The notes under the pieces are model-generated. The model did not search any database, was not told where the DNA came from, and was given only the letters and a program-made list of their open reading frames with translations. Positions 4,829-63,920 of a stretch of DNA of 64,000 nucleotides are shown piece by piece. The stretch spans positions 3,347,204 through 3,411,203 of the forward strand of contig OX422184.1 of assembly GCA_949130485.1 (NCBI GenBank). The letters are read 5' to 3'. This DNA comes from Agelas oroides (lineage: Eukaryota > Porifera > Demospongiae > Agelasida > Agelasidae). Made by a program: the position numbers and the translations under genes. The first letter of the stretch is position 1, and every line of letters begins with the position of its first letter.

Positions 4829-5392
4829 GAAGTATTCCATAGCTGTAGACATCTCCCTTCACAGTTTTGATGGATTCCTATCTCTCACCAGAGGCTGCGT
4901 ACACAGGTGCACCTGGTCCTATGGTCTTGGCCTGCATTGCAAGCTTTACGAAGCCAAAATCTGAGAGCTTAGCTTTCCACTGGTTGTTGGGTTTAGCCTC
5001 CAAGAGAACATTGGCAGAGCTAACATCTCGGTGGATGATTTCACCGTGGTGATGAAGGTGAAGGTAGTTGAGGGCTGAAGCAATGTCTCGGAAGATATTC
5101 AGCTTGCTGGAACCTTCAAGGAGGTTCCTCTCATATGCCTTTCTAAGTGACATGTAAAGCAATTCTGTGACCACCAGTGGATCATTCTCTGACGTCTATA
5201 AGCATCACCAAGTTGGGATGTCAGATCTGCGCCATGATGCTAATTTTCTTGTGGATGACCTCAATATACTCCGGCTCCTTGAATCATGTCATGTAGACCT
5301 TTTACTGCACTCATTGTCCTCGAAATGTGCCCTCCACAACAAACTCCCAAGCTCCAGTGCCAAGAGTCTTCTGCATGTTGAGAGAGACTTAG
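4829..5392 (-). pseudogene. NHR-kinase family fragment G (kinase middle only)
   Basis: This is a copy of the middle of the kinase exon, truncated at both ends. Recognisable are the VTELL hinge region, the catalytic loop HRDVSSANVLL and a DFG motif (DFGFVKL instead of the family's DFGSAKL). The activation segment frameshifts at YAASGER and stops at 4878. The last roughly 75 residues are missing because the sequence joins the archaemetzincin pseudogene at 4828/4829. On the other side similarity ends near 5392, just upstream of the glycine loop. No NHR exon lies upstream before 10359. It is a dead fragment, the outermost of the array in this window. Confidence 0.8.
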
Positions 5393-6907
5393 CTACTCAG
5401 AAATATGTTACATCTATGAAGTTTCTTTGGCTACTGCTTTTATAGGATGTATTTGTTTTTGATATTTGATACACATAGTCACCAGTACAATCATGTATAT
5501 GCATATTGCAAACTACTTGACAATGGGAAGGCTTGGAAACAAGGCATAGTCAAGGTCCCTAATATGGCTGGCTACCTGTTTGCACAAATCCCATAGGCCT
5601 GAACACAGAGTGATGTGCTATGGTACATATCCCGTTGTATGCAAGTGTCGTCACACTTTCAACACCATTTTCATAACTGCAGCATGTGCCCTCTGACAGT
5701 TGGTGTAGCACATTTACAGTTTACAGCTAATAACATTGATAGGTGCATTACATCATCAGCCTGTACTGAAATATGCATGCTAAGGCAACCTGGTACAAGA
5801 TGTGGCAGTGTTGGATATGCGTGTCTTCCATGATTAACAGTATTGCCTCTACCATAGCCTGATGCACTTCACCCATATTTGGTCATCTCAGTTGCATGCA
5901 TTTTGTGTGACACATCAAAGGATGCTTTCAATTTGAATCAAAGTGTGGTTGAGAAACTTCTCCCTTTGTTCAATTAGCTTCAGAAGGCCTAGCTATAAGT
6001 CAGCATTTCTGGTTAGGTTTGGTGTTTCTTTGATCTTACACATCTGCCCCTGGAGGATTCCTTGGTTGCATGCATGGTTGTGTTAGAAATGCAGCCAAAT
6101 AGGTCTTCGGAATAAAGAGACTGGTTTAACTAAAGAAGAAGCACCTCAATGGCTGTCAATAATCACTGGATTGGATTACTGGAATGGACTACTGGACTGA
6201 CCTTTTTTTCACACTAATAATCTTTTATATGACCTATGACAAGATTTGCTTGCCTGAAGCTTTCTGACATGACCTATTGCCTCTCCTGCTAGCCTCGTAC
6301 CCAAGCTCCTCCCCTGCAGAAGACCCTGGGTATGAGGCTATCTCTTGCTATCTTGCCTTTTTTAACTATGTAAGTAACAATGTATTTTTCCTTGTAAACT
6401 GGATGGTGGCGAAGGACTAGGAACGAGGCTAGAATGAGGTACATGTACACACTGTCCACATTTTTCCGCAGCAAGTGCAATGCAGATGCCAGTATTTGTA
6501 ATGTAGGCATGGATTAGAGTCTCGGTTGCTTGGAACAGTAGCACACAACGCTGGTGAAGCTTGGGTTGACAGCTTGCTTGAGAAGAGTGATCATGCTCAC
6601 TGTTGGTAGGTAGCTACCACACACAGTCAAGTATGCTTCACAATACGAGTGAGAATGTGTAGGCAGCTACTTGACAGACTTTATCCTGCAAATCCTGCAA
6701 AGGTGTTGTATCCCTCGCATGTGAAGTGTTCAGGTGCCGACAATGTGATTATAGCAGTGACCTTTTATACTCTCTTTTGAATGGTACAAGTCCTAGACCC
6801 CAGAGCTGCTTCTGGAGAGAGCTACAAATCGGTGACAAACGTATGCCAATAATCGCTAGAAACGCCGGTAATGTAGCAAAATGGGTCTTCTCAAAGAGAA
6901 ACTAATT
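5393..6907. other. Intergenic with one small MITE
   Basis: No gene recognised. A 51-bp member of the TAGCCTCG family lies at 6290-6340, with degenerate flanking 8-mers TCTCCTGC and TCTCTTGC, perhaps an aged target duplication. Confidence 0.45.
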
Positions 6908-7893
6908 GAACTAAAGAAGATCAAAGCTCTTGGACGGAATCTCAAGAAACCTATTTTGGAAACATTCCTGGGACTTATGATACTATCACTCAGGCGCAAC
7001 TGAGATGACCTAAAATACGATTAAAGTAGCACAATTTACCATTGTAATAGTGCAAAATGTCCCCCCCTCCCCCCCCCCCCCCCCCCCCCCCCCCCAAAAA
7101 AAGTGGCCCCCTAGGACACTCTACACTAGTGTAAAGTGTCCCCCCTCAGTGAAAAGCCCCCCCCCCCATATAGGACACTATGCACTAGTGTAAAGTGTCC
7201 CCTCTTCAGTGTAAAGAGCCCCATAGGTCTATGTCTTGGGGGGATACTTTACACTATAGTGTCCTTCCCAACATGCATGAAGTTGGCTGATCTGCCTTAC
7301 CTGTGTGACTTAAATCAAAGTGGCCATATAGCAGCTATATGACATTAAAGAGAAGCTTGTGCTTAACAACAAAAGTATAAACATTCAATGTATAATAGTT
7401 GTCAAATTCTAAGTAGCTATATATAGCACAAACTACAAACTTAAATAATATCCACAGTATTAGCAATCACTAGCTACTTCCCTAACGAATGTTACACAGA
7501 TTAGCTATAGCTAGTTACATTGTGAACAAACCACAAAGAGTCCTTTGACTGTGTGAACACATCCTTGTCAATTCCCCTTCACACGCCATGTGAAACCATT
7601 CCTTGCATTGTGAGCACTGTACTAGTGCCCGCAGGATTGAACGGTTTTTGCCCAAGGCTGGCGGCAAACACTCTGGGTCGATGCACAAAGAACCTAGATA
7701 CACTACAAAGAGCTATACAAGTTAACAAAGGCCTATACAAAGAAAAAAGAACACACTAGAACAATACTATTGTTCACAGAACTAAAGAAGGAGCTCTTGG
7801 ACGAAATTTCAAGAAACCTATTTTGGAAGCATTCCTGGGACTTATAATAATAATACACTCAGGTGCAACTAAAAATACAGTTAAAGTAACCCA
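6908..7893. repeat. Direct repeat pair around C-rich low-complexity tract
   Basis: Segments 6908-7035 and 7779-7893 are diverged direct copies (shared landmarks include AACTAAAGAAG, CTCTTGGACG and GCATTCCTGGGACTTAT). Between them lies a C-rich tract with a run of over 30 cytosines near 7066-7095, and a local array of GTGTAAAGTGTCCCC-like units with ACACTAGTGT palindromes (7110-7265). The copies may be ends of a larger element. Confidence 0.5.
7515..7703 (-). pseudogene. Zinc-finger (PHD-like) relic
   Basis: A 62-codon frame contains VQCSQCKEWFHMACEG, the C-x2-C-x4-H-x2-C second half of a PHD-type finger. A less clear Cys-containing stretch precedes it (LCIDPEC). No partner exon was found. 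Such fingers are common in transposon proteins of invertebrates, and the fragment lies between the two direct repeats, so a transposon relic is the likeliest reading. Confidence 0.35.
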
Positions 7894-7982
7894 ATATTTA
7901 GTCTGTAACTGAAGCAACCCCACTCAGGTTAATTAAAACAACCCTCGACTTTTTCTAGCACCGTGTCAGTCATAAGAGCACT

Positions 7983-10031: not shown

Positions 10032-12069
10032 GTATATTATAGTCTTGTGTGATGTGTAAACCATTTCCAGGTCCATGTGGTAAACAGATCATAGTTTCAT
10101 TCCACAAGGCTCTCCCTGAAAACCCACTGTAAGCAATGTAATGACATGCAGTGACTTGAGAACTAGACTGGGGAAGAACACCAGTGATGTGCCTATGTGT
10201 ACACTACATCATGTGTACACATGCATGACTCATTCAGCATTAAATTTACAAAACCTATTATATACTCAATTAACCTCGAAACTAACTGGCAACACAGAGT
10301 GACTATACGAGACAACCATTATGCCAATATACCATTACACAATTTGTCCAATATGTGATTAGTTTGGTCGAAATTTATTGAGCTCAGTCAGCACATGAGA
10401 CATTGTTGGTCGGTTGTCAGGGTGCTCTTGAATGCAAGCCGTGATCAGTCCATGAATGAACACGGACCTGTCTCGAATTGCTTGCATCATGCTAGGGAGC
10501 CTCTTCTCCATTGGGAATTGCTCCATGGTCACTTCACACACAAGTATTCCATAGCTGTAGACATCCACCTTTGCAGTCTGACGAATTCCCATCTCTCGTC
10601 TGACTTCAGGGGCTGCGTACACAGCTGCACCTGGTCCTGTCGTTTTTGCTTCCATTGTGAGCTTTGCGGAGCCAAAATCTGAGAGCTTAGCTTTCCACTG
10701 GTTGTTGGGTTTAGCCTCTAAGAGAACATTGGCAGAGCTGACATCTCGGTGGATGATTTCACCATGGTGATGACAGTGAAGGTAGTTGAGGGCTGACGCA
10801 ATGTCTTGAACAATATTCAGCTTGCTGGAACCTTCAAGGAGGTTCTTCTCGTATGCCTTTCTAAGTGACATGTCGAGCAATTGTGACAATTAGGGGACCA
10901 TTTTCTGCCTCAATCACAGCAGCTATAAGCATCACCAAGTTGGGATGTCGGATCTGCGCCATGATGCTAATTTCCTTGCGGATGACCTCAATATACTCCG
11001 GCTCTTGAATCATGTCATGGAGACATTTTACTGCCACTCGTTGTCCTCGAAATATGCTCTCCACAACAAACCCCCAAGCTCCGGTGCCAAGAGTCTTCTG
11101 CATGTTGAGAGAGACTTCTTCTCGTGGGACCTCCCAGAAATTGCTCTGGTAGGACTGTTTGGACTGTGGCTGCAAAGCATATTTCTGGACTTGCTGTCTA
11201 AGTGTAGCCAGTTGCTGCATCAACCCCTCTTTTTCACTTTGTATATTGTGTATGAATCGATCTTTCTCAGCTATTTCATGCCTCAATTTCTCTTTTTCGC
11301 TTTGTAAGGCTTGTATGATTTGGTCTTTCTGAACTATCTGCTGCTTCAGCTGTAGCTGTGCTGCCTCAGTAGTTTTGTCTTTCTCTGCTGATTGCCGCAT
11401 AAGGTGGGATATCTACATAAGTTGAAGATACTGTAATAAACTCATCTAGACTGAACAGAACGGAAACTTCGTGCAAAACAACATGAAACCCGGGTTGCAC
11501 ATCACTTAAATGTGCCATATGTTGAAGTGTTTGCAATGATCAAATTGAATTAAGCACGCAATCAAAGTCCCTTTTGAGAGCTGATCAAAGAATCAAGGTA
11601 ACCTCCTAACTGCAAAAATCAACGGATCAAAGATGTGTGGCTACAATTTGACCTTTGAACTACTGAAAATCAAGCAATCAAGAGCTTCAGCAGGGAACAA
11701 TCAAGTGATCAAGTACACTTTTTGCCAATCAAAATTCTTGATCCTGGTTGCAAATGCTTCAACAGTTGACATATAAGTGACTACCCTGTGTTGCACATGC
11801 ACTTTTAGCTTGAACCTAACGAGAATAATACGGTAGTCTCAATATGTCAATATACCTGGTCTTTGTATGTGTCCCGTTCTTGCTGCAGCGATGTAACTCC
11901 TGACTCGCAATGAAGTATCTCATAACTCATTAATTGATCACATCCTTGAGTCTCCAAGTCTTTCTGGAAGACCAAGAAAATTATATCTGGTAAACTTGTC
12001 GCGTGAAGTGTAGATGTCAGGTTGATGTCTGGAGATGTGGCAAATTCCTGAAAAGTTGCCATCCATCCA

Positions 12070-15150: not shown

Positions 15151-15794
15151 TACCACCGCAGATCCTTAACAGCTACGTAGGCCCTACCTGCCCTTGTGAT
15201 CCTCACAGCTTCACACTTAGCATTAATATCCACTACTGGGTACAGATCATATCCTGCTTGATAAATGCCTTGAGCTGCAACTCCCTGGGACCTGCCATTC
15301 ACAAAGAAGGTGACCACACCATCATGTGACACCTGCAAGCCCAAACGGTCTCCTTCACGCAAGTCATGTAGGTTTTTAAAACCATATTTCATTCGTGTAG
15401 GACCTGAGTAGCCAACAAGTTTATTCTCAATTGCACTTGGACGAAAGTCTTCCCAGCCAGAATGCCATATGCAGTAGTTTGTAGTACCAGGAGAATGCTG
15501 TGGAACATCACTGTGCTTGATCTTGCTTCCAGCCTTGCACTGCATCACTCCCAGTTTGAGTGTCCCATTCCACCACTCTGTCTCGTAGGATGATATCTCA
15601 ACTTCAAATTCGGTTGTTCCCTTGAGAACTTTGGCTCCATATGCCACACCATAATGACATGGATCAGAGGGGTGTATCCGCTCTGCCTGTAGACCTCTCC
15701 TTCCAGAAATCTTTATATTGTTAGCATGAAATGATTGCCGGAATCCAAACTCAATAGAATTTTTGAGCACAAAAGTTTCTTCAGATGATGCCAT

Positions 15795-16729: not shown

Positions 16730-19700
16730 CTAGTTTGGTGATTTATTGAGCTCAGTCAGCACATAAGACATTGTTGGTCGGTTGTCAGGGTGCTCTTGCA
16801 TGCAAGCAGTGATCAGGCCATGCATGAGCACCCACCTGTCTTGAACAGCTTGTATCATGCTAGGAAGCCTCTTCTCCATTGGGAATTGCTCCATGGTCAC
16901 TTCACACACAAGTATTCCATAGCTGTAGACATCCACCTTCGCAGTTTGACGGATTCCCATCTCCCGCCTGACTTCAGGAGCTGCATACACAGCTGCACCT
17001 GGTCCTGTAGTTTTTGCCTCCATTGCAAGTTTTGCAGAGCCAAAATCTGAGAGCTTAGCTTTCCACTGGTTGTTGGGTTTAGCCTCTAAGAGAACATTGG
17101 CAGAGCTGACATCTCGGTGGATGATTTCACCGTGGTGGTGAAGGTGAAGGTAGTTGAGGGCTGAAGCAATGTCTCGGAAGATATTCAGCTTGCTGGAACC
17201 TTCAAGGAGGTTCTTCTCATATGCCTTTCTAAGTGACATGTCAAGCAATTCTGTGACCACCAGAGGATCATTTTCTGCATCAATCACAGCAGCTATGAGC
17301 ATCACAAGGTTGGGATGTCGGATCTGTGCCATGATGTCAATTTCCATGCGAATGACCTCCACAAATTCGGGTTCTTGAATCATGTCATGCAGACATTTCA
17401 CTGCCACTTGTTGTCCTCGAAATGTGCCCTCCACGACAAACCCCCAGGCTCCGGAGCCAAGAATCTTCTGCATGTTGAGAAAGACTTCTTCTCGTGGGAC
17501 CTCCCAGAATTTACTCTGGTAGGACGATTCGGATTGTGGTTGTAGAGTATCCCTCTGGGTGTTCTGTCTAAATGTAGCTATCTGTTGTCTCAACCCCTCT
17601 TTCTCACTTTGTAAGCTCTGTATGAACTGATCCATCTCGGCTATCTGTTGCCTCAACCCCTCTTTATCATTTTGTAAGCTCTGTACACAGTGATCTTTCT
17701 CATCTAACTGCTGCCTCAAGCCTTCTTTCTCGCTTCTTACTACCTGTATAAATTGATCTCTCTGCTGCCTGAAGCCCTCTTGTAAACTCTCTATAAACTG
17801 ATCCTTCTCGGCTATCTGTTGCCTCAACCCCGCTTTCTCACTTTGTAAGCTCTGTATGAGTCCATCTTTCTCATCTATCTGCTGCCTCAATCCTTCTTTC
17901 TCACTTCTTACTACCTGTATGAATTGATCTTTCTGCTGCCTGAATCCTTCTTGTAAACTCTCTATCAATCGATCCTGACTGTTGCATAAGAAGTGACACC
18001 TGAATATAGTTGGGAGTGCCAAGATAATATTGTAGCACAGATGTGTCAAGACAAGCATGATAAAAAGTGACCTAAAGTCAAGCCAGTTCTGATTGATGCA
18101 CTATATGCAACAGCAGACTGGAATGGTACCTGTTTTTTGTATCTGTCTTGCTCTTGTCGTAGTTTAGCAATTTCTGACTCACAGTGGAGTTTCTCATCAT
18201 TCATCCTCTGTCGATCATGTCTTTCAGCCTCAAAGTCCTCCTTGAAGACCCTCAACTACACAAGGACGTAAAAAGGACGTGAAAATACCTTTATATAAAG
18301 AAGCACCCTTACTTTCCACAGAAAATCCATCCCAGCCCAAATGAAACACTTTGATGCAAAAGCGTGCGGAACTTTGTTTATGTGATGACATCATGATCGG
18401 ACAGCACAAATGTACTGGGAAAATCAACCAACAGTTGATTGGGAAGATAAGCTCATAGTTGATAATAACAATGAATGAAATGAATAAAAAGTTTGAGTTT
18501 CAATTCACAAATAACACAATCATACAATGTGCTTGTAATGTGTACATTTTGCAAGGAAAGAATGATTTGCACCATGGCCCATGCATGAAAGCTTGAGTCC
18601 TCCTTGTGATGGATATTGTTAATGCATCATCATCTTTAACTGAATATAATGGAAGGTACCACCATGAAAGCTACACTTATGCCAACAATGTCTTCCTCAG
18701 TTAGTCCCTCTTGTTTGGAAAAATATCATGGAAGAATATAACTATGAACCACTGTAGAAACTCTTTTCCTGAAATTAACTTCATGTATATCACAGTGAAG
18801 ATGCTCATATATATAGATTGCAACTAACATCTAACATTCTATAGCCACAGTACTGTTTAGTAAGAACTTCCCTAAAGCTTATCACACTCACACCACAACA
18901 CGAGCTGTGATGAGTATCAGAAGTGGCTAGCTATTACATATTGCATTGTGAGTTAGACGCAATTACCACGTTTAGTAACTGGCTTATACATATAACCATC
19001 TCCAAAATGTGAGCTCTAGAGTGTTCATTGTTTTCGTTGGTGGTACCTACTGTTGTAACGCTATTAACACTCACTTGCTCTCTTAGGACTGCTACTTCTT
19101 CCTTGAGTGCTTGTTCCTAGCATAAGAGAATATAACTGCATTGAGGAGTATCAAACCATGCAGGCTGCAACTCAAGCAAGTATAAGTAGCTATAAGGTGT
19201 ACCTGAGCCACAGTAAGGGCCATACCGATAGGCAATTTCAATGCACCCCATGCACTAATCAATTATTAAGGAATCTGGTATAGACCTCAAGAAGATAGTC
19301 TGGCGTTGCTAGTGTTTTGTGTTTGGACAGATGAACAAGTGGGCACTTGACTACCAGCAAATACCACAGTTATGAAGTACAAATTGTTTGTATGGGTGCA
19401 GATGCAATCTTCATAATGGTAGTACATTAGGTCATACAGCTGTTTTTAGCTCCTACAAAATGCCCTCGCAATGAGACTAGAGATATCACCTTCCACAATC
19501 ATGGCTTGTATGTGTCACAGTGTAGGCTCAGTTAAGATACATGTGCCAAAGTAGGCTTTATGTGGGACACCTTGCTTGTAGAATGGACTGTCACTATAAG
19601 GCTGCACTTGTACTAATATGCATCACAAGTTCTATAAATACTAGTCTATCGAGCTAGACCACCTTCTCTCGCTCGCCGGAAGTTGGGGGTGGGGTTAAGG

Positions 19701-20602
19701 AAAGGCGACCCCGCCCCCAACTTTCGCCAAGAGAGATAAGGTGGTCTAGCTCGATAAATACCTGATAGGTAGCGCTGCTGTCAATTTTCTGCACTGTAAT
19801 AAGGAAATCAGGGATGCAACATCATACAAACTGGCCACTGTTAACAGTAACACTTGTGATCATAAGTGATGTTCCAGTTAACTTAATCATGCCCGACTAT
19901 AAGAAAGGCCAGTAAGCTGGGTCTGAGGGTATTTTATGCACACACATGGGTACAATTTTCTGACCATGCTAGAGCTACTGTAGAGCTCTAGTACTCTACC
20001 ACTACAGGTCGTCAACATCTAGAAGTGAACATACCTGCCCTTGTGATTCTGACAGCTTTGCAATTAGCGTAAATATCCACTACTGGGTATAGATCATATC
20101 CATCTTGGTAAACGTCTTGAGCTGCAACTCCCTGGGACTTGCCATTCACAAAGAAGGTGAGCACACCATCATGTGACACCCGCAAGCCCAAACGGTCTCC
20201 TTCACGCAAGTTTTCTAAGTTTGCACAACCGTATTTCTTTTGTGTAGGACCCGAGTAGCCAACAAGTTTATTGAGGACTCGATGAGATGACCACATGCAA
20301 TACATTTCGGCACCAAGTGAAATTTGTGGAATATTACTGTGCTTGATTTTTCTTCCTGTCTCACACTGCATTACCCCCAGGGTAAGCGTCCCAGCCCACT
20401 TTGTCTTGCAGGATGTGATCTCAACCTCAAATTCAGTTGTTCCCTTTAGAACTTTGGCTCCATACACTACACCACAACCGTACAGTTTTGTCTTCTCTGC
20501 CAGAATCCCATCCTCCGAAATCTTTATATTGTCGGCATAAATGGAATGGAATCCAAACTCAACAGCATTTCTGAGCACAAATGTTTTCTTGGATGATGCC
20601 AT
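16730..20602 (-). CDS. NHR-coiled coil-kinase gene E
   Basis: Exons: 20602-20035, 19793-19762, 19116-19075, 18255-18130 and 17974-16730, giving about 670 residues: NHR 1-189, UBAN-like exon 4, then seven heptad-repeat units (the longest coiled coil in the array; units 1-3 and 4-6 look like one triplet duplicated), then the kinase. The kinase has GSGAWGFV, VAVKCLHD, HRDVSSANVLL, DFGSAKL and AAPEV. Start: ATG of MASSKK; the longer reading needs a GTG. Oddity: relative to siblings, 8 nt are missing right after the usual exon-5 acceptor (CAG|GTGTCAC at 17999), so using it would frameshift; an AG 25 nt further in (GTCAG|GATCG) restores the frame and is my choice. Transcript data would settle this. 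A 110-bp hairpin MITE sits in intron 1. Confidence 0.7.
18130..18255 (-). CDS. Gene E exon 4: UBAN-like coiled coil
   Basis: 42 codons, phase 0 on both sides, acceptor TGTGTAG and donor GTACC. Core VFKEDFEAERHDRQRMNDEK retains Asp-Phe-x-x-Glu-Arg-x-x-Arg, the ubiquitin-contacting pattern of NEMO/ABIN/optineurin UBAN helices. Confidence 0.65.
19647..19756. mobile_element. Hairpin MITE in intron 1 of gene E
   Basis: 110 bp with arms TATCGAGCTAGACCACCTT and its inverted match, continuing inward through TCTCTC and GTTGGGGG/CCCCCAAC. Spacer about 18 bp. No ORF. Confidence 0.75.
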
Positions 20603-21030: not shown

Positions 21031-21190
21031 TAGTACTGTTGATTTAAACTCCCTTTGAACACAAGTCTAGCCATCATCGTTCATAGTTCAATACCACCTC
21101 AAGTGGCCATAATTGAATTAACTACAAGACTTATTAGCCACAAACCCTGTCTGATCCACCTATGAAGTCAGTGAGATGCTTACTGTGTTA

Positions 21191-21255
21191 CATTTGTGCT
21201 CAGAAATGCTGTTGAGTTTGGATTCCAAACTCAACAGCATTTCTGAGCACAAATG
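21191..21255. repeat. Perfect 65-bp palindrome made of NHR 5' coding sequence
   Basis: Two 32-bp arms (21191-21222 and 21224-21255) are exact inverted copies around a single T at 21223. The right arm is the beginning of an NHR exon (codons for FVLRNAVEFG), so the left arm is an inverted copy of coding sequence. Confidence 0.9.
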
Positions 21256-21495
21256 TTTTCTTGTTTTCTTGGATGATGCCATGGCTCCCACTGGCTCTTA
21301 GTCTTGCTCACTGAACTACAATGTCATTTACTTTGTACAGAATCTACCCCTGTAATACACAAGTCAGAAGCGAACAGCATATCAACCAAATGAATGTGAA
21401 TGACATAGTAATGTTTTCATTGATCGACACATACATAATTAACTTTGTACCAAGACTCTAAATGCATGGTGAATAATGTGGGACTCACTAGTTCA
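21224..21495 (-). pseudogene. Duplicated 5' end of NHR exon plus leader
   Basis: Nearly identical to 20545-20815: the first codons of gene E exon 1 (with a 9-nt TTTTCTTGT insertion), the ATG context and about 210 bp of upstream sequence. It could act as a second promoter but reads into the palindrome, so it is a broken partial duplication. Confidence 0.75.
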
Positions 21496-42000: not shown

Positions 42001-43519
42001 GCTTCATGTGAGACATCTTTGCTCCGGCTCTCTTTCACACCGACACTGCACTCTGGCAGTAGCCCTTTAAATGAGCGCAATAAATATTTCGTGAAGATTG
42101 AATCCACATGCACTTGAGCTCAGTCAAGAGCAACAGAATTTACAGCAAGTGGCTACAAGCAAGCCAGTAACTAAGCAACCAAGCAAATATACACATGCAC
42201 ATGCACATTGCAGCCACGCAAGTGTGAGGCTTGCTCAGGCTTGCCTCAATAAGAGCAAGCAGCCACTCTCCAACAGCTGGAGACTGGAGCTAGACAATTT
42301 GACCAAAGAGTGAAGCAGCTAGATCAAAGAGACTTTGGGAGTGGACATTCTGAGACCAACTTGCCTAAAACATAAGGTCAAACTGAACTTCCCAGTTCGA
42401 TCCCTAACAGTATGCAGTGTTTTTTCCCCCCCACTTCCTGTTTGACTGCTTACAGGCTCGCTTTCCTTGCAGATAATAGTTGATACGCAGCAGTGCTTTT
42501 AAGCCTGCAATAAAGGTTATGACATTGTGGTCAACTCATGTCTCCCTTGAACCTTGATGGTTAAACAGTTAAAGGTAAACTAGTACTGAACTCTCAGGTC
42601 ATCTTGGGGTGTGGTTTAGAGTTGAGCTTGAAACAAGTATATGCTTATAAAGTCAAATGAAACTGTACCCAAAAACATGGGCAAGTTCCCACATGCATAT
42701 AAACTGAACTCCCTCTATACCTGTTACATTTCTCACATGCTAAAATATATATACCCATTCCATTCCTAATTTTGCAGTGTTGGAAAGAGCCTGAAAAACA
42801 GACTGTACAGTTTTATTAGCCTCGTTCCCAGGCCCCGCCCAGCTTTTCCGTTTTATATATACATACATAGTTGGGTACAATGTTAGACTCTAGTAATCTA
42901 GCATCACAGGTCTTCAACAAGGGTATTGAAATATGTGCGTACCTGCTCTTGTGATTCTGACAGCTGTGCACCGACCGTAAACATCTGCTACAGCATACAG
43001 ATCGTATCCTTCTTGATAAACGCCTTGAGCTGCAACTCCCTGTGATGTGCCATTCACAAAGAAGGTGAGTACACCATCATGTGACACCCGCAGGCCCAAA
43101 CGGTCTCCTTCACGCAAATTTTCTAGTCTTGTAGAACTGTATTCCCTTTCTGTAGGACCCGAGTAGCCAACAAGCTTATTGAAGACTCGATGAGACGACC
43201 ACATGCAATAAAATTTGACATCAAGTGAATATTGTGGAATATCACTGTGCTTGATCTTGCTTCCTGCCTTGCACTGCATCACTCCCAGTTTGACTGTCCC
43301 ACTCCAGCTTGTCTTACAGGATGTTATCTCAACTTCAAATTCAGTTGTTCCACTTAGAACCTTGGCTCCATATGCTATACCACCATTGAATGTATCAGAG
43401 GGGTATATTCTCTCTGCCAGTAACCCATACTTTGAAAGCTTAATGTTGCGACCATGGACAGAATGAAATCCAAACTCAACGGCACTTCTGAGCACAAATG
43501 TGTCCTCAGATGACGCCAT
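37711..43519 (-). CDS. NHR-coiled coil-kinase gene C (lacks exon 3)
   Basis: Exons: 43519-42943, 39704-39673, 39239-39114 and 38670-37711, about 564 residues: NHR 1-192, an 11-residue linker, the UBAN-like segment, one heptad-repeat unit, kinase. The 42-nt exon 3 seen in A, B, D and E was not found between 39240 and 39672; its absence keeps the phase. Kinase motifs are complete (GTGAWGFV, VAVKCLHD, HRDVSSANVLL, DFGSAKL, AAPEV). Intron 1 is 3.2 kb and holds a foldback element (40445-41290). Closest relative by 3' flank is D, but the coiled coil, with a single unit, is closer to B. Confidence 0.75.
39114..39239 (-). CDS. Gene C exon 4: UBAN-like coiled coil
   Basis: 42 codons, same borders as siblings. 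Core AFQEDFEAERRDQQIMSEEK: Asp-Phe-x-x-Glu-Arg kept, but the distal Arg of the DRQ triplet is Gln, a possible weakening. Confidence 0.65.
40445..41290. mobile_element. Foldback element in intron 1 of gene C
   Basis: Imperfect inverted arms at 40445-40690 and 41030-41290. Shared pairs: GGGTCTGGTGAC, GTGCAGAGATACTTCTGTG, TATTCCCTAGAGCACTGTAG. A left-over central segment of about 340 bp has no ORF. Confidence 0.75.
41338..42942. other. Rest of gene C intron 1
   Basis: Contains a truncated TAGCCTCG-family end at 41338-41420 and another at 42818. No exon was recognised. Confidence 0.4.
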
Positions 43520-46212: not shown

Positions 46213-46544
46213 CTAATTTGGTTGCAGTTCCGTCAGCACATGAGACATTGTCGGTCGGTTGTCAGGGTGTTCTTGTACGCAAGCAGTGATCAGGCCATGC
46301 ATGAACACCCACCTGTCTCGAATCGCTTGTATCATGCTAGGAAGCCTCTCCTCTAGTGGAAATTGTCCCATGGTCACTTCGCACAAGAGAATCCCATAGC
46401 TGTAGACGTCCACCTTCGCAGTCTGACGAATTCCTATCTCTCGCAGGACGTCAGGAGCTGCGTACACAGGTGCACCTGGTCCTGTCGTTTTGGCCTCCAC
46501 TGCAAGTTTTGCAGAGCCAAAATCTGAGAGCTTAGCTTTCCACT
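46213..46544 (-). pseudogene. NHR-kinase family fragment H (kinase C-lobe)
   Basis: Encodes the end of the kinase from LSDFGSAKL through the APE region (reads APDV) to the C-terminus ELQPN, slightly shortened. At 46544/46545 coding sequence stops in mid-exon and continues as sequence resembling the intron of gene F near 11715-11785. A deletion has joined exon 5 to an upstream intron. Its 3' flank matches those of C and D. Confidence 0.8.
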
Positions 46545-46831
46545 GGTTAAAATCAAGTTATCAAAATCTTGATTCGGATTGCAAACACTTCAACAGGTGA
46601 TGTAAGTGACTACCCTTAATAATGGGGCCAGCTGCACTTATCATGTTATCTTGTTTCCCTTAGACCTTACAGTAGACTTTTACTTTGTCATTAGTACTTT
46701 ACTGATGAGTTTGCCTTTACTTAGTTATCAGAAATTTGTCCTTTTCCTCTTAACCTTACAGTAGACTTTTCTTAGTCATCAGCTGTGGTCATTTAATTGC
46801 CTTTTTCCTTGTTCTAGGTACAGTTGAACGC

Positions 46832-46839: not shown

Positions 46840-46917
46840 CCCACAGCTAACCAGCAAGAGCTGTATCTTCGCTAAATCTGTAGTATTTCAGCAAAATCAA
46901 TTGAGTGGACATCAACG

Positions 46918-49627: not shown

Positions 49628-52600
49628 TCAGTTTGGTCGAAGTTTATTGAGGTCAGTCAGCACATGAGACATTGTTGGTCGGTTGTCAGGGTGCTCTTGT
49701 ATGCAAGCAGTGATCAGGCCATGCATGAACACCCACCTGTCTCGAATTGCTTGTATCATGCCAGGAAGCCTCTCCTCTATCGGGAATTGCTCCATAGTTA
49801 CTTCACACAAGAGAATCCCATAGCTGTAGACATCTACCTTTGCAGTCTGATCGATTCCTATCTCTCGCAAGACTTCAGGGGCTGCGTACACCAGTGCACC
49901 TGGTCCTGTCGTTTTGGCTTCCATTGCAAGCTTTGCGGAGCCAAAATCTGAGAGCTTAGCTTTCCACTGGTTGTTGGGCTTAGCCTCCAAGAGAACATTG
50001 GCAGAGCTGACATCTCGGTGGATGATTTCACCGTGGTGGTGAAGGTGAAGGTAGTTGAGGGCTGCTGCAATGTCTCGGAAGATATTCAGCTTGCTGGAAC
50101 CTTCAAGGAGGTTGCTTTCGTACGCCTTTCTAAGCGACATGTCGAGCAACTCTGTGACAACCAGGGGATCATTTTCTGTATCAATCACAGCAGCTATGAG
50201 CATCACCAAGTTGGGATGTCGGATCTGTGCCATGATGTCGATTTCCTTACGGATGATCATGAGAAAATACGGCTCTCTAATCATGTCATGGAGACATTTT
50301 ACTGCTACCTGTTGTCCTCGAAATGTGCCCTCCACCACATATCCCCATGCTCCGATGCCAAGAATCTTCTGCATGTTGAGAGCAATTTCTTCTCGTGGGA
50401 TCTCCCAGAATTTGCTCTGGTAGGACTGTTTGGACTGTAGTTTTAGAGTATTGCTCTGGACTTGCTGTCTAAGAGTAGATACCTGCTGCCTCGAGCCCCC
50501 TTTCTCACTTTGCAAGCTCTGTATGAATCGATCTTTCTCAACTATCTGTTGCCTCAACTCCTCTTTCTCTGCTGATAGCTGTGATATCTGTATACAGAAA
50601 GTTCAAATGCAATAGTATGTTTGTTACACAGAATTGTCTGCACAATATGAAAAATGACCTAATATCAAGTAAAATCAAAGTCGTCATGTGTGAAACAAAC
50701 TTTTAATGGAGGAGCTCCTCTGGTTGGAGTGTGATGGCAGCTACCTGAGGTAATATGAAGTTTCCTGACAGCTTAAAACTTACACATGATTTAAACCAAG
50801 CAATGTTATTGTGTCTCAGCTGTAGTTCAATTGCTGTTCTGTCTGGAAACAAGACTTAGATCAAACACAAGGGGCAGTGAAATAGTCCAGCTATGCTTTG
50901 TTCTCAGGCTCTCCCCGTGCGTGAATGAAAATGCAAGTGACGGAAAGCTGGGCAGGGCCTGGGAACGAGGCTATAAGCTGGACCAGCTTCACTGGTTCCG
51001 GTACCAGCTGTCATGCTGACATGCATGTCATCAGAATACCTGATGCTTGTATCTCTCTTGTTCTTGCCGTAGAGAAGCAACTTCTGACTCACAGTGGAGT
51101 TTCTCATCGCTCATCCTTTGCCTGTCACGTCTTTCAGTCTCAAAGTCTTCCTGGAAGACCTTCAACTACACAAGGACATGTTGGATGAAGGATTTTCATT
51201 GGTTTCAAACTTTGAAAAAATTGTATATACTATGCATGGTGTATAATTAGGTTGTGGCCTTATGATAGATTGGCATCATCATAAACTCCTGAAATTAAAT
51301 TTCTTACTTGATCGTAAATAATATTAGAGTAACTATTCAAGATTATAGTGAGTACTTGGTAAAACCTGAGACTGTTGCGACCTGAGCACAGCAAGGGAGC
51401 TACTAACAGGCAGAGAGTTTTAAGAAGCATGCATAAATTCCATTAGATGAAGCGTCTAATGTATTCAGAGTATGTCAACAAAGTTGTACACTTTATTACC
51501 ACAAAACGTGTGCCTATATCACCAATAAAAATATGCTGATTACTGCAATTGAAGTTACATGCAGTGATGGCAGCTGGAGTCATGAATGTGCAAAACAACT
51601 GGTGAGTATAGATGCATTTCAACAATGATCATGCTCAAAGGTTGCAACTAACGTCTGAGTTACCAGCACATTACAGTGATCCCCTTCTGCCCTGGCTAGC
51701 TTTGGCTAGCTAGCTCATGCCAGAGCCAGAGCAGCTGTGGTGAGAGTTTCGGTCTTGGATGCTACATACTACACTGAGTCTCATGAGAAGGGCATCAGTT
51801 AAATACTTATAATAGTAAATTACCAGTCTGTTTAGGTTTCAAGGTATAAAGATTTCTGCATACAATACTCACTTGCTGCCTTAGGACTATATCTTCTTCC
51901 TTGAGTGCTTGCTCCTATAGCATAAGAGAAATCATGTTGATCTGAACTATGTATGTAGGTAAGAAACACCTAGGCTACAGTGCCTGATCGAGCACAGTGA
52001 GGTTCTAGTAGGTATATATACCTCACGAGAAATTTCCTACCAATAAACTGACTATGTACATAGACTTGGTTGATTTCACATGCCAAAAGTTATACAGTTC
52101 TGTATGCTAACATAATATGACAGCATTATCTTGGAATACTGACACTGCAAGTGAGTACAGCCAGAACAATTGCATTCTTTACTATTCCTACCCAAATACT
52201 TCACAGCTTCTCCATTTACCTGAGAGGTAGCACTGCTGTCAATTATCTGCACTGCATAAGGTAATCAGAGATGCAATGTCACATGCACACACTGCCTATT
52301 GTACCGTAAGCTCACAACGGGAGGGAGCATTTACTTAAATATTCAATAATTAGTCTTGACCATACAGCTCCCAGTTCAACGCAATGTGAAGTCGACAATG
52401 CATTTACGATGCAATGGCTTTCTGGAAGAACAGCAGCATGACTATAGTTGGTTATGCAACTATGTGAAATCAGCAGCACGTGTTGATACTAAGCTGAGAG
52501 GCATCAAGGTAACTTGCATCATTAGTGATGACAGGGAACAACCAGTAAGCCTGTGCCACAAGCAACAAAAATCTGGGTGGTAGGCTGCAAACGAGGCTAG

Positions 52601-53440
52601 TGGTTCCATGTGTATATGTTTACAAAAACCAAAGCTCACTAAAAGTACGCACAGAAGATGCTCACCACTGAGTATTCTTAGTAAATGTACCTATGTAACA
52701 ACAGTTAATCATGAGGTGGATTTATTTACAGCCACATACGCTTGTCCTACCTCACATATACTAGCCCCTCTCCCATTTGTTTGTAATTTTATATTCATAT
52801 GGAAGAGAGCCTAAGCTTAGTACTCTACTACTGCAGGTCGTCAACATCTAGAAGTGAACATACCTGCTCTTGTGATTCTGACAGCTTTGCAATTAGCGTA
52901 AATATCCACTACTGGGTACAGATCATATCCTTCTTGGTAAACGCCTTGAGCTGCAACTCCCTGGGACTTGCCATTCACAAAGAAGGTGAGTACACCATTA
53001 TGTGACACCCGCAGGCCCAAACGGTCTCCTTCACGCAAGTTTTCTAAGTTTGTAGAACTATACATTCTCTCTGTGGGACCTGAATATCCAACATGCTTAT
53101 TATTGACTTGATCAACTGACCAAACGCAGTACATCTTGGTACCAGGTGAAGTTTGTGGAATATCACTGAGCTTGATCGTACTTTCTGCCTTGCATTGCAT
53201 CACTCCCAGCTTAAGTGATCCAGCCCACTTTGCTCCATAAGATGTTATTTTAACTTCAAATTCAGTTGTTCCCTTTAGAACTTTGGCTCCATATACCACA
53301 CCACCATCGTATGTATCAGAGGGGTTTATCCTTTCTGCCTGTAACTCATTCTTTGAAAGCTTAATGTTGCGACCATGAACAGAATGAAATCCAAACTCAA
53401 CAGCCCTTCTGAGCACCAATGTGTCCTCAGATGACACCAT
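49628..53440 (-). CDS. NHR-coiled coil-kinase gene B
   Basis: Exons: 53440-52864, 52251-52220, 51914-51873, 51165-51040 and 50587-49628, about 578 residues. All five exons are present with consensus borders. NHR 1-192; linker exons encode VQIIDSSATSQ and EQALKEEDIVLRQQ; the UBAN-like segment follows; then a single heptad-repeat unit and the kinase. The glycine loop is GIGAWGYV. VAVKCLHD, HRDVSSANVLL, DFGSAKL and AAPEV are intact. The start reads MVSSED where siblings read MASS. A TAGCC-family MITE lies in intron 4. This and gene A are the best candidates for fully functional members. Confidence 0.8.
50896..50973. mobile_element. TAGCCTCG-family MITE in gene B intron 4
   Basis: Right end GCCTGGGAACGAGGCTA intact; left end eroded (TATGCTTTGTTCTCAGGC). 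Confidence 0.75.
51040..51165 (-). CDS. Gene B exon 4: UBAN-like coiled coil
   Basis: 42 codons, phase 0. Core VFQEDFETERRDRQRMSDEK with all of Asp-Phe, Glu-Arg and the distal Arg. Confidence 0.65.
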
Positions 53441-55300: not shown

Positions 55301-55301
55301 G

Positions 55302-56874: not shown

Positions 56875-56952
<78 letters not shown>

Positions 56953-58723: not shown

Positions 58724-61700
58724 TCAGTTTGGTCGAAGTTTATTTAGTTCCGTCAGCACATAAGACATTGTTGGTCGGTTTTCAGGATGGTTTTGTATGC
58801 AAGCAGTGATCAGGCCATGCATGAACACCCATCTGTCTCGAACTGCTTCTACCATGCTAGGGAGCCTCTTCTCCATTGGGAATTGCCCCGTGGTCACTTC
58901 ACACACAAGTATTCCATAGCTGTAGACGTCCACCTTCGCAGTCTGACGGATTCCTATCTCTTGCCTGACTTCAGGAGCTGCGTACACAGGTGCACCTGGT
59001 CCTGTGGTTCTGGCCTCCATTGCAAGCTTTGCGGAGCCAAAATCTGAGAGCTTAGCTTTCCATTGGTTGTTGGGTTTAGCCTCTAAGAGAACGTTGGCAG
59101 AGCTCACATCTCGGTGGATGATTTCACCATGGTGATGAAGGTGAAGGTAGTTGAGGGCTGAAGCAATGTCTCGGAAGATATTCAGCTTGCTGGAACCTTC
59201 AAGGAGATTCCTCTCGTATGCCTTTCTAAGTGACATGTCGAGCAATTCTGTGACCACCAGAGGATCATTTTCTGTATCAATCACAGCAGCTATGAGCATC
59301 ACCAAGTTGGGATGTCGGATCTGTGCCATAATGCCAATTTCCTTGCGGATGACCTCGATATACTCCGGCTCTTGAATCATGTCATGCAGACATTTCACTG
59401 CCACTCGTTGTCCTCGAAATGTGCCCTCCACAACAAACCCCCAACCTCCAGTGCCAAGAATCTTAAGCATGTTGAGAGAGACTTCTTTTCTTGGGACCTC
59501 CCAGAATTTGCTCTGGTATGACTGGTCAGATTTCAGTTGTAGAGGATTCCTCTGGATTTGCTGTCTAAGAGTAGCTATTTGCTGTCTCAACCCCTCCCTC
59601 TCACTCTGTAAGCTCTGTATAAATTGATCTTTCTTGACTATCTGCTGCCTAAACCCCTCCCTCTCACTTTGTATGAATCCATCGTTCTCAACTATCCACT
59701 GCCTCAACCCTTCTTTCTCCCTTTGTAAGCTCTGTATGAACTGATCTTTCTCATCTATCTGCTGCCTCAAACCCTCATTATCTGCTGACTGCTGCAATAC
59801 CTGCAAACAAAAAATCAGGGATGCAATAGTCAGAAAATGATGGCTGTTGCACAGAACCGGGCAGCACAATGTGAAACAAATTGCCCAACATCAAATGCTA
59901 CACAGTATACTGCAAGTGATCAAAAACTGGAGGGAGGGAAAGCCTGGGAAAGAGGCTAGGCTGCACACTTGATACTTCTAGCAATCAGGGCTGCCAAAAC
60001 AATGTAAGGATGGTCACACGTGGAACACTCATTACAGTTGAGCTATATTTACAGTCTGATGGGTTGCTTTGCATTCTTCAATATGATCACAACTGATCAA
60101 GGCTACATTAATCAACTGTAATCATCCATTCAGTTGCAATTCTGTCTGGAAACAAGACCTAGGCTGAATACAAGGCAGCACCCGAGTCAAAATTTGAAAA
60201 TGTCTGGCAATATGTACCTTCACTGGTTCCAAATATGTACCTTCACTGGTTCCAGTCACTATATTAATGACAGGTCAACAATACCTGGTCTTTGTATCTG
60301 TCTCGTTCTGCTTTTAGAGAAGCAATTTCTGCCTCACGGTGGAGTTTCTCATCACTCATCCTCTGTCGGTCACATCTTTCAGCCTCAAAGTCTTCCTGGA
60401 AGATCTTCAACTACACAAGGACATAATAAGAAGAATTTTTCTGACTAAAGACCATCTCAGCCCAAGCTGACTGAATACTTTGCTGCATAAGCTCAGAGGC
60501 TTAATGTTGTTTACTGTTGCCAACAGTAGCTAGGTGCTCTATGAATATTGATATTAGCTATACTGGGAGAGTGAGAAATAAATCCATAGAAAAATTACCG
60601 AGATCCCGCTGGGATAAGCTCACCATTTTGGGATATAGTATCAGTGGGTTAGAAAGTCAACCAAAAAGATATGATTATTGTAGTGTAGTAGACTAGTGAC
60701 TCATCCCAAGGAAGAATAGCTACCAGTAAGTCCAATTTCCTTGTACTTTGTACACAGAATATGCATGCATGCATGCACAAACGTTGAAATTTTGTGATTG
60801 ATATCAACATTAAGCTCTCTCTTTTGCTATCTTAGCAATGGATGAGAACACACACAAAATGAACATGGATAGTTCCAAGTCAGGCAAGTCAGCTGAATAA
60901 ATGGTCCGGCCATGGCCTGACCAGCTATACCAGTTCCGGTGCCTATATCCCCATACATAGATCACTCAAGTGAACACTGTACAGCATGTCATGAAATTTT
61001 GTAACTCGACCTTGCTGTTTGAGGTTAAAGGTCTTTGTGTCTGATATCTTCATGCAAAGGGTAAGACTGTGGTGCCTCAGAAACCATTCTCCTGCATGCA
61101 AATAGAACCATGGCAAGGCTACTATAGCTAGTTGTACATGTATACACCATGTAAACACATGTGCCTACACACTTCTGGGGATGAATTATACTGCAAGCAA
61201 CAAAAATTGGGGTGAAGATGCCTTGTGTGTGGCTAGTGCTATTCATGAATATAATTTGAATATACTTGTAAGTTGTACACAGTTGTCAATCCGTTTCTTT
61301 ATCCTTCCATCTGGTTAGGGTTTTCCATGACTGGCTCTCTAACATAAAACTTGCGCACTGTTTTCTCCGAAATCTATAGGTACCCACTCTGTTTTGGAAA
61401 TAAAAACAATTTTTATACTCCATTAAATTCATACAGCTAGAAATAAAATTAATTTATATAGTAGTAGTTTTAGTAACTGGCTTATGTAATCAGACTACTA
61501 CACTTAACACTACTCACTTGCTCCCTTAGGACCGCAACTTCTTCCTTGAGTTGTTTGTCCTAGCATAAGAGGAATAATTTATGTTGATTTGAACCATGTA
61601 AATGCATGTAGAATGTAGATTCAGAGACTGGCCTATAGGCTCAAGTGCCTGAACACAGTGAACGTCTAGTACATTGGTTTAACAACTTAACCCAGTGCAT

Positions 61701-63527
61701 GTGTCAAGATATCCCCTACCAATAACCTTGTATATGTCTCACCATGTAGACTTGGTTGCATGATATACAAATTTCATCCACTCAGCATGCCAAAAGATAC
61801 TACCCATGGAGGATCTCTCACAGAATATATGTAGCCAAATAAAATATGTTCAGATGTTCTAATCATTCATGTCACAAGTGACTGCTTGAAGAACTGCACA
61901 TGTACTATATATATTGTTAAGTTCTGTACATGCATACCTGAGAAATAGTGATGCTGTCAATCTTCTGCACTGCATAAGGAAACCAGGGGTGTAATATCGC
62001 ACACTGCCTATGTCAGCTAGCTAAGAATAGACAAGTTATCATTGTAGTTACAAGGTAGCCTTGTTCCAGTTTTACTGAATCTCCAAAATATGTAAAGCGA
62101 AAACCGTATTGCGTTCCTTATATGGAAGTCAGAGGGTGCACTGATGGTTATGTAATGTGACTCATTCTTTATCTTCAATGCTTTGCGCTTGAGTGTTGCA
62201 AAGATTCTGCAAAACCCGGTACATTGCTTACAGTACAAAACATGGGAATGTGACTGGAATACTTATCACACAGTGATACAGAAGGTCGAGAGAAATGGAA
62301 TTACTAAGTGCGGGCAGATTATCAATTGTGGCCGTGTATGCAATTCGATGATCAAGTGCTTGTGTCAAAATTGATGTAAGCATAGAAAAAGCTCAAGCTT
62401 TCTGGAGAAAGAAATCTTGTGTTAAATATCACTTTGAAAGTTTTTAAGCAAGTAAATGGGTGAACACAAGCTTGTTAATTCAAGAATTGTACTGTCGCAA
62501 CTACACAAGATATATAATGAATTCAGAAAAAACTGTCAATAAACACATGCATGGGCGATTGTTTGCTGGTCCATGTGCATATATATAAAGCTCCTCTACC
62601 CGCGGCATATCCTTTCCATTCACAATTTCAGTATTCAGAGAGAGCCTGGATACTAGGTTATACAGTCTTGTACAGCTGACATAATTTACACACACACTTC
62701 AGTGGCTTCTCAGTCATAAATGGGAAGGAAGGTTCTCTGATACCAACTTAAAATTGGAAACTTTGCCAACGTTTCAACTGAATGCTCAGTCATCACTTTC
62801 ACCCTGGAGCATTTAGTCGAAACATTGGCAAAAGTTTTTTTGTTGGTATCAGAGAACCATTAATGCACACAGTTGGGTACAAGGTCTGACCACTGTCGAG
62901 TCTAGTAACCTACCACTGTAGGTCTTCAACAGCAAAGATATTGAACCTACCTGCTCTTGTGATCCTCACAGCTTCACACTGACCATAAACATCCACTACT
63001 GCATACAGATCGTATCCTTCTTGATAAACGCCTTGAGCTGCAACTCCCTGGGACTTGCCATTCACAAAGAAAGTGAGGACGCCATCACCTGACACCCGCA
63101 GGCCCAAACGGTCTTGTTCACGCAAATCATTTAGGTTTGTAAAACCATACTTCAATTCTGTAGGATCTGAGTAGCCAACAAGCATATTTTCAATACGGTC
63201 TGAACAACACATGCAGTAGTTTGGAGTACCCGGAGAATATTGTGGAATATCATTGAGCTTGATCTTGGTTCCTGCCTTGTACTGCATCACTCCCAGCTTA
63301 AGTGACCCATCCCAATTTGTCCCATCATGGGACATTATTTCAACTTCAAATTCAGTTGTTCCCCTTAAAGCTTTAGCTCCATATACCACACAACCATATA
63401 CATCAGCAGGGTTTATTCTGTCTGCCCCTAGCCCATACTTTGAAATCTTTATCATGTCAGAATGAATGGAATGGAATCCGAACTGAATAGCACTTCTAAG
63501 CTGAAATGTTTCCTCAGATGATGCCAT
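58724..63527 (-). CDS. NHR-coiled coil-kinase gene A (reference member)
   Basis: Exons: 63527-62951, 61969-61938, 61559-61518, 60410-60285 and 59800-58724; 617 residues, all borders GT/AG. NHR (1-192): FGFHSIHSDMIKIS, EFEVEI, GSLKLGVMQ and DGVLTFFVNGKSQGVAA match the Neuralized repeat, a protein-binding fold of Neuralized E3 ligases. Linkers: 193-217. UBAN-like coiled coil: 218-259. Heptad repeats (three units, one short by 3 residues): about 273-345. Kinase (about 370-617): GTGGWGFV (375-382), Lys395 in VAVKCLHD, HRDVSSAN (488-495), DFG (Asp512) and APE (534-536). All residues needed for phosphotransfer are present, so it is probably active, TKL-like. The catalytic loop has Ser-Ser where Ser/Thr kinases have Lys-Pro and Tyr kinases Ala-Ala. 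Soluble, no signal peptide or membrane segment. Start: ATG of MASSEE, since the longer frame begins at GTG. Confidence 0.8.
60285..60410 (-). CDS. Gene A exon 4: UBAN-like coiled coil
   Basis: 42 codons between GTGTAG and GTATTG. Core IFQEDFEAERCDRQRMSDEK. Known: in NEMO the DFxxERxxRE helix contacts linear ubiquitin. Here Asp, Phe, Glu, Arg and the distal Arg are kept and the last Glu is Gln. Confidence 0.65.
62731..62858. mobile_element. Hairpin MITE in gene A intron 1
   Basis: 128 bp. GGTTCTCTGATACCAAC pairs with GTTGGTATCAGAGAACC, and inner arms TTTGCCAACGTTTC/GAAACATTGGCAAA continue it. Confidence 0.85.
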
Positions 63528-63575
63528 TGCTTCCACTGGCCCTGAGTCTTGCTCACTGAACTACATGTACAAAAC
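63528..63575 (-). promoter_or_regulatory. Conserved 5' leader of the NHR-kinase genes
   Basis: AGCAAGACT occurs about 15-35 nt before the ATG in all six NHR genes (here and upstream of 53440, 43519, 28730, 20602 and 15794), followed by a CCAGTG-like piece. It may be a core promoter or 5' UTR element, or merely reflect recent duplication. No TATA box is obvious. Confidence 0.45.
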
Positions 63576-63888
63576 CTGTACAAGAGTGAGTAAACAGCAT
63601 AATGACCAAATGGCTGACATAGTAATACTGTCTTTGGCTCATGCACCCATGCATTCACAATTCGCAATTTTTTCCTCAGCTCCCAAATTCAAAAAAAAAA
63701 AAAAAAGATCAAAATTAAAGTCCTAAGACTTCTTTCTCTACAAATCTCAGCTGTGTATTACACACACAACACTCCACAACACACTACATACAGTTTTGTA
63801 CTTTACATTAACCTGTTGAGCGTAGTTCTACAACAACTCTGGTCACACCTCTTAGACAGCATTCACACGAAAAGTGAATGAATGTACT

Positions 63889-63920
63889 TGCCCTTGTAGG
63901 TCTGACAACTTTGCACACTG
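63889..63920 (-). pseudogene. Tiny NHR exon relic at right edge
   Basis: On the plus strand CTTGCCCTTGTAGGTCTGAC followed by AACTTTGCACACT matches the end of NHR exon 1 (RITRAG and its donor), then similarity stops. It hints that the array once extended rightward. Confidence 0.4.

Follow-up and report, generated by a model that had tools for sequence, protein, structure and literature searches.

A tandem array of sponge genes predicted to join an NHR domain, a UBAN-like coil and a kinase in one chain

Can a sponge gene family join target recognition, ubiquitin binding and phosphorylation in a single protein? The question is raised by a 64,000-nucleotide stretch of the Agelas oroides genome (assembly GCA_949130485.1, 259 Mb in 141 contigs; contig OX422184.1, here C2:3347204-3411203), hereafter the window. 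An initial annotation had read in it a run of minus-strand genes in which an NHR domain and a UBAN-like coil precede a kinase, in a single chain and on a common exon plan. Our analysis indicates that the tandem NHR-UBAN-kinase array is real, and that NHR, UBAN, coiled coil and kinase form one predicted chain, a reading well supported by the gene models.

On the minus strand of the window, tblastn finds six NHR exons that alternate strictly with six coiled coil-kinase exons, and Pfam recognizes five NHR and four kinase exons out of six of each kind; the six annotated NHR-kinase loci are all present. We letter the genes A to F from right to left on the window. The array continues beyond its left edge with a seventh gene, G (C2:3336300-3341300; exons of 592, 32, 42, 126 and 1278 nt, all five open, 690 aa), and further kinase fragments lie left of the array (C2:3330973-3331354, genome search). 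The assembly holds 19 NHR matches (seven in the array, nine on contig C8, two on C19 and one on C13), and the genome search with the NHR profile gave none on C2 to the right of the window. Tandem amplification is borne out by the genome search. Both annotated kinase fragments were recovered by tblastn, that at 4788-5388 in two frames. The NHR relic is also present, but it measures merely about 33-64 nt, is inverted and lies on both strands rather than on the minus strand alone; it sits within a 240-bp duplicate of the stretch where gene E starts. The features are as follows (window coordinates; E, expectation value).

62951..63527, minus: gene A exon 1 (577 nt), NHR; PF07177 E 5.2e-23
61938..61969, minus: gene A exon 2 (32 nt, phase 1 to 0); gene model
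61518..61559, minus: gene A exon 3 (42 nt, phase 0-0), N-terminal part of the UBAN match
60285..60410, minus: gene A exon 4 (126 nt, phase 0-0), UBAN core; PDB matches of exons 3+4, PF16516
58724..59800, minus: gene A exon 5 (1077 nt), coiled coil and kinase, stop; Pfam, AF2 model
52864..53440, minus: gene B exon 1 (577 nt), NHR; PF07177 3.2e-29 (genome search)
52220..52251, minus: gene B exon 2 (32 nt); gene model
51873..51914, minus: gene B exon 3 (42 nt); gene model
51040..51165, minus: gene B exon 4 (126 nt), UBAN; exons 3+4 ABIN1 6.3e-7, PF16516 1.2e-6
49628..50587, minus: gene B exon 5 (960 nt), coil and kinase; tblastn, genome search
46216..46548, minus: kinase fragment, C-terminal part; tblastn
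42943..43519, minus: gene C exon 1 (577 nt), NHR; PF07177 5.8e-30
39673..39704, minus: gene C exon 2 (32 nt); gene model
39114..39239, minus: gene C exon 4 (126 nt), UBAN; PF16516 E 0.19 at best
37711..38670, minus: gene C exon 5, coil and kinase; Pfam
28073..28730, minus: gene D exon 1 (658 nt), NHR with internal 5' duplication; PF07177 2.8e-25
27836..27867, minus: gene D exon 2 (32 nt); gene model
26582..26623, minus: gene D exon 3 (42 nt); gene model
25213..26382, minus: gene D exon 5 (1170 nt), coil and kinase; Pfam
20035..20602, minus: gene E exon 1 (568 nt), NHR; PF07177 2.1e-25
19762..19793, minus: gene E exon 2 (32 nt); gene model
19075..19116, minus: gene E exon 3 (42 nt); gene model
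18130..18255, minus: gene E exon 4 (126 nt), UBAN; gene model
16730..18100, minus: gene E open frame, coil and kinase, usual acceptor out of frame
15188..15794, minus: gene F exon 1 (607 nt), NHR; PF07177 3.6e-18
11856..11972, minus: gene F degraded UBAN exon, acceptor lost
10359..11412, minus: gene F coil and kinase, frameshifted; tblastn
21190..21282, both strands: NHR relic, short inverted piece
4788..5388, minus: frameshifted kinase fragment, with which an NHR was looked for and none found; tblastn

How regular are these genes? The annotated exon lengths proved exact: exon 1 measures 577 nt in A, B and C (658 nt in D, where its 5' part is tandemly duplicated internally, 568 nt in E and 607 nt in F), and exons 2, 3 and 4 measure 32, 42 and 126 nt wherever they are intact. 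All 14 introns in the models of A-D are GT-AG; exon 1 ends in phase 1 at ...RITRA G|GT and exon 2 leads from phase 1 to phase 0. The claim of one common exon plan holds completely for A and B, and for G outside the window, whereas C, D, E and F deviate. Exon 3 was searched for in gene C, and exon 4 (UBAN) after exon 3 in gene D, and neither was found; both frames are nevertheless intact because exons 3 and 4 are each phase 0-0. The model proteins of A, B, C and D have 617, 578, 564 and 633 aa. Gene E retains exons 1-4, with the conserved exon-5 acceptor AG|GTGTCA out of frame and a downstream acceptor AG|GATCG that would restore the frame; its status is uncertain. Gene F is a pseudogene, in which a search recognized neither exon 2 nor exon 3, exon 4 is degraded with its acceptor lost, and the kinase is frameshifted at 10882-10889. 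In A, B, C, D and G, inspection by eye shows a recurring AG acceptor roughly 30-65 nt ahead of the start codon, which suggests that an additional 5' non-coding exon precedes exon 1.

The claim that NHR and kinase belong to one chain is upheld, at the level of predicted genes, by compatible phases in five gene models and by a 616-aa database protein (P0065), which carries the C-terminal part of PF07177 (positions 61-148 of the 149 in the profile; 39.7 bits against a cut-off of 23.3) and the kinase in a single open frame. In a second database protein (P0008), UBAN tail and kinase exon again share one frame, which runs across an apparent intron. Among 49 NHR relatives from the database, the border motif at the end of the NHR exon is matched by a regular expression in 38 and present with one change in 8 of the remaining 11; past this motif the frames of the relatives diverge, as expected for a conserved donor. 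Among the matches listed, NHR and kinase occur on contigs of equal length (526,943, 309,048 and 201,240 bases), and these equal lengths suggest that the pairing recurs in other assemblies.

For the NHR, PF07177 lies above its curated cut-off in all six exons, at 66-105 bits in the five scanned with Pfam and at 108.8 bits for B in the genome search; this is the profile support that had been set as a test of the annotation. Among solved structures, the NHR of KIAA1787, which we take to be NEURL4, is the closest (E 4.5e-14, PDB sequence search). NHR domains bind peptides or proteins. Across 43 NHR sequences, variability peaks at residues 97-131 (mean entropy 1.41 bits) and is lowest at 132-192 (0.45 bits). 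A separate NHR exon on C13 at 9.19 Mb (locus L040, 4915-5583, plus) is about 53% identical to those of the array and has the same donor position; within the 9.9 kb fetched there, we found no kinase match and, in a regular-expression scan, no RING. A candidate second NHR-kinase locus at C16:3518100 was rejected: its upstream stretch looks SPRY/NHR-like by eye, yet has no Pfam NHR match, and the kinase frame contains stops.

Is the short segment between NHR and coil truly a UBAN? Exons 3 and 4 of gene A match ABIN1 (E 2.1e-6), OPTN (1.7e-5) and NEMO (6e-3) in the PDB, and those of gene B match ABIN1 best (6.3e-7). For both genes the top 20 PDB matches (of 24 and 23) are all ABIN1, OPTN, NEMO or ABIN2, with other coils ranking below, and the alignment to the UBAN of these four proteins spans about 37-50 residues. 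As a control, the exon-5 coil of gene A gave 21 PDB matches (best E 0.39), among them no UBAN protein, which rules out a generic-coil origin of the match. Genes A, B, E and G all retain the stretch xEDFxxERxDR; a regular expression for the full UBAN motif matched none of 170 database proteins. A genome search with the Pfam CC2-LZ profile (PF16516) at E <= 1 gave 10 matches: four in the array, four at UBAN-type loci outside it (C3:12.50, C3:12.56, C3:13.75 and C15:7.97 Mb), one on C9 and one in a C7 kinase coil, which on inspection is not a UBAN. Array exon 4 starts at the same codon, directly after AG, as the UBAN exon in all four UBAN-type loci, each of which we opened. This common start points to exon shuffling. 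Together with the similarity to solved ABIN1, OPTN and NEMO, it bears out the annotated UBAN. The simplest account, and a well supported one, is that the array captured this exon from a conventional UBAN gene. At C15 the UBAN exon is apparently 150 nt long and phase 0-0, and the UBAN at C3:13.75 has ABIN1 as its first match (E 9.5e-4). Zinc-finger-like motifs lie downstream in three of the four loci (by eye); the single one given to Pfam scored below the cut-off.

The remainder of the chain is exon 5, in which a coil of variable length leads into a conserved kinase. Tandem 63-nt (21-aa) units occur in the coil of A, D and E, and the residues before the FWE motif number 98 in A, 59 in B and in C, 129 in D, at least 148 in E and 166 in G. 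An AlphaFold2 (AF2) model of gene A exon 5 shows one unbroken helix at residues 2-83 followed by the kinase (predicted local distance difference test, pLDDT, 84.6). The Pfam kinase match has E about 1e-36 in the four exons scanned; for B and F, the kinase was identified by tblastn and the genome search. The catalytic set K136, E154, D231 (HRD) and D253 (DFG) is intact; invariant in 37 of 37 aligned kinases are the loop glycines and Trp, Lys136, Glu154, His-Arg-Asp 229-231, Asp253 and Ala-Pro-Glu 275-277. In the PDB, the kinase matches CSK, a tyrosine kinase, first by sequence, then CTR1, MLK1, TNNI3K, LRRK2 and IRAK4 among others; Foldseek places TNNI3K, BRAF, CRAF and CTR1 first, with Abl at rank 15, MLK1 with its leucine zipper at 22 and Csk at 28. 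The kinase is TKL-like, as annotated, with the TK-group kinases CSK and Abl also among its matches; the RIPK likeness drawn at the same time is not borne out: no RIPK occurs among the best 60 of 850 PDB matches, and a Pfam scan of the exons gave no Death or RHIM match.

The kinase belongs to a large wider family: at E <= 1e-20 the genome has 89 matches, and C7 carries 31 of these. At both C7 loci opened, Kelch-like frames (by eye) precede the kinase, which indicates that this kinase has several N-terminal partners. The kinases closest to those of the array (tree support 83-86) map to C3:12.38-12.41 Mb, with two of the UBAN-type loci about 90 and 146 kb away; the DNA fetched there, which for two of the three covers just 1.5-2 kb upstream, contains neither NHR nor UBAN. 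A further database protein (P0086) carries the same kinase family behind repeated C-x4-C-x11-C-x2-C motifs, A20-type-like by eye, and Pfam listed no zf-A20 match for it. If these motifs are truly A20-type, they would represent a second ubiquitin-binding partner of this kinase.

Do the parts evolve alike? Nei-Gojobori means over A, B, C, D, E and G (without D for the UBAN exon) give nonsynonymous (dN) and synonymous (dS) distances of 0.193 and 0.410 for the NHR, 0.148 and 0.509 for the UBAN exon (dN/dS 0.29), 0.166 and 0.539 for the coil (0.31), and 0.054 and 0.278 for the kinase. UBAN exon and kinase are coding and on average under purifying selection, and NHR exons diversify faster than kinase exons (0.47 vs 0.19). 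No positive selection on the NHR was seen: the mean ratio is below 1 and no 15-codon window has pN/pS >1 (highest 0.99; seven genes, pseudogene F included). For the six genes, NHR and kinase give different trees, and in the approximately unbiased (AU) test the tree of one part is rejected by the other in both directions (p 0.0018 and 0.0007), which indicates reassortment or gene conversion; in the NHR tree, two of three inner branches are supported at 61-62. The family is clustered, with a variable sensor, reassorted parts and pseudogenes. The likeness to immune or self-recognition families that the initial annotation had proposed stands in its faster NHR, discordant trees, pseudogenes and clustering, but not as regards diversifying selection, the NHR ratio being below 1.

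What might such a protein do? Our working model, which we judge evenly poised between right and wrong, is an intracellular coil-dimerised kinase with two inputs, an NHR target and a ubiquitin chain, encoded by a tandem array of animal genes; all of it beyond the domain assignments is what we infer. The predicted order is NHR, short linker, UBAN coil, an extensible coiled coil of 21-aa units and a TKL-like kinase. UBAN and the long coil would form a parallel dimer, the NHR would bind a peptide or protein target whose identity varies from one paralogue to the next, and the UBAN would bind M1- or K63-linked chains made at the same site, on or near the target. Target and chains would cluster the kinase dimers, which would phosphorylate each other and substrates, as RAF, MLK and IRAK do. 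The result would be a two-input switch, with a recognised target and a ubiquitin chain in and phosphorylation out, and paralogue D would be a version with the ubiquitin input dropped. Only tentatively do we go further and propose a kinase that may read linear or K63 chains through its own UBAN, replacing the NEMO-IKK or ABIN/OPTN-TBK1 adaptor steps, with variable NHR exons reassorted over a conserved kinase in a clustered family.

For the ubiquitin input, we take the Asp of the EDF motif kept in the array UBAN to correspond to D485 of ABIN1. Its D485N variant, described as the equivalent of NEMO D311N, is defective in ubiquitin binding according to PMC5520163, and UBAN domains prefer M1 chains, then K63, and not K48, according to PMC7226360. 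The genome also encodes PF18091 (E3_UbLigase_RBR type), in two exons above the cut-off. We presume this to be the C-terminal domain of the linear-chain ligase HOIP, and its presence makes a source of M1 chains plausible.

Several observations weigh against this two-input model. The CC2-LZ scores are all below the 35.3-bit cut-off (A 33.5, E 5.9e-8; B 29.3, 1.2e-6; C 12.6, 0.19), as are all 10 matches of the genome search, conventional UBAN loci included, and 2 of 14 control genomes, both bacterial, also matched at E <= 1, so that weak CC2-LZ matches mean little alone. Gene D lacks the UBAN, the UBAN core of gene C has Gln and Ile where A, B, E and G have Arg, and 2 of 10 pairwise UBAN dN/dS values are near 1 (A-E 0.92, A-G 1.05). 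The HRD loop reads HRDVSSAN, without the Lys that is usual in Ser/Thr kinases. The NHR structure model was poor (pLDDT 47.8) and was not used, so no ligand surface was mapped. As to the one-chain prediction, coverage of the spliced query reaches at most 76% among the 120 protein-database matches listed of 2450, a protein-database search with residues 1-260 returned no NHR-UBAN protein and one weak match (E 0.12), and no spliced homologue was seen among the matches listed.

These observations lend themselves to other explanations. The UBAN exon may have been captured and yet serve as a mere dimerising coil that binds no ubiquitin, leaving an NHR-guided, coil-dimerised kinase. Gene D, open in frame without the exon, the sub-threshold Pfam scores and the changed core residues of C would fit; the retention of xEDFxxERxDR in A, B, E and G and the top 20 PDB matches, which, with the exon-5 control, single out UBAN proteins and not coils generally, argue the other way, and we consider this explanation somewhat unlikely. 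That the proteins act as ABIN-like decoys, dampening signalling by competition for ubiquitin chains with the kinase secondary, seems improbable to us. ABIN1 is the closest UBAN, and PMC8286839 and PMC5520163 suggest that it acts through competition for chains, but conservation is highest in the kinase (dN/dS 0.19), whose catalytic residues are intact.

The locus could also comprise two transcription units, namely an NHR-only protein, whose frame runs on into a stop just past the donor, and a separate UBAN-kinase protein. The NHR frames of A-F indeed end 23-41 nt past the donor, and no spliced record was found among the database matches listed; set against this are the phase-matched donors and acceptors in five models, the strict NHR-kinase pairing in the array and the one-frame fusion in P0065, which make two units distinctly improbable. 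It is very improbable indeed that the array is mostly a decaying local duplication without a working product: F and both window fragments are broken and E is doubtful, but A, B, C, D and G are open and the mean dN/dS is below 0.5 in every part. The two-input kinase remains the reading that we prefer.

Other elements lie among and beside the genes. Between D and E, at 22197-23683 (minus), are pieces of a tyrosine recombinase (DUF3504 5.8e-29, Phage_integrase 3.4e-10) with a QRICH1-like N-terminal part below cut-off (9.6e-6), presumably a Crypton-like element. A 405-aa open frame at 7959-9176 (plus) has no significant Pfam match, and by eye a very similar copy lies left of the window (locus L037, 3471-4559, plus), which indicates that it was probably duplicated together with the array. 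Tandem 46-bp repeats of near-identical unit lie downstream of the C and D kinases, at 35679-36647 (21 copies) and 24002-24372 (8 copies). A 495-nt inverted repeat at 30128-31252, whose arms are 98% complementary, both contain open frames and flank a 135-nt spacer, is possibly a recent mobile element. A 168-aa frame at 46876-47382 (plus) shows weak beta-trefoil lectin similarity below cut-offs (AbfB 8.9e-4, RicinB 4.2e-3), and left of the window a minus-strand endonuclease-reverse transcriptase frame is of non-LTR retrotransposon type (locus L038, 2633-5572).

How does the array compare with known systems? The domains are known; their combination as NHR, UBAN and kinase was not found described in our word searches of open-access literature: among the titles and abstract openings listed, none mentions an NHR-kinase or UBAN-kinase protein, and no TKL kinase combined with either domain turned up. 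In well-studied animals, ubiquitin chains are connected to kinases through separate adaptors, e.g., OPTN with TBK1 or NEMO with IKK (in part after PMC7226360). If our model is true, the UBAN and SPRY-fold sensor carried within the kinase chain would condense that adaptor pathway into a single protein and provide a natural test of kinase activation by ubiquitin-chain clustering, for which the sister kinases without NHR or UBAN, and paralogue D without UBAN, would offer ready-made controls. The common exon border would also be a clear example of a ubiquitin-binding module spreading by exon shuffling.

The UBAN proteins ABIN1-3 (TNIP), NEMO and optineurin are like the array in their UBAN alignment and, locally, in the exon start. 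They are adaptors not known to carry a kinase domain, whereas here a kinase follows the coil. The Neuralized family (NEURL1, NEURL4) shares the NHR domain, but differs in being E3 ligases, while the array models have a single NHR and no C-terminal RING and end in a kinase. In the part of PMC2770060 available, NHR with RING is reported in Bilateria only; the corresponding part of PMC5094078 describes TIR combined with Pkinase and SH3 and, separately, with neuralized, but not neuralized with kinase. The TKL kinases (MLK, RAF, TNNI3K, IRAK) resemble the array in kinase fold and sequence, and MLK also in the coil joined to the kinase, with the unusual HRD loop as the difference. Finally, the SPRY/NHR immune sensors (TRIMs and others), as PMC8195603 presents them, likewise join a variable SPRY-fold sensor to an effector, which in the array is a kinase instead of a RING, HECT, NACHT or Death-fold domain.

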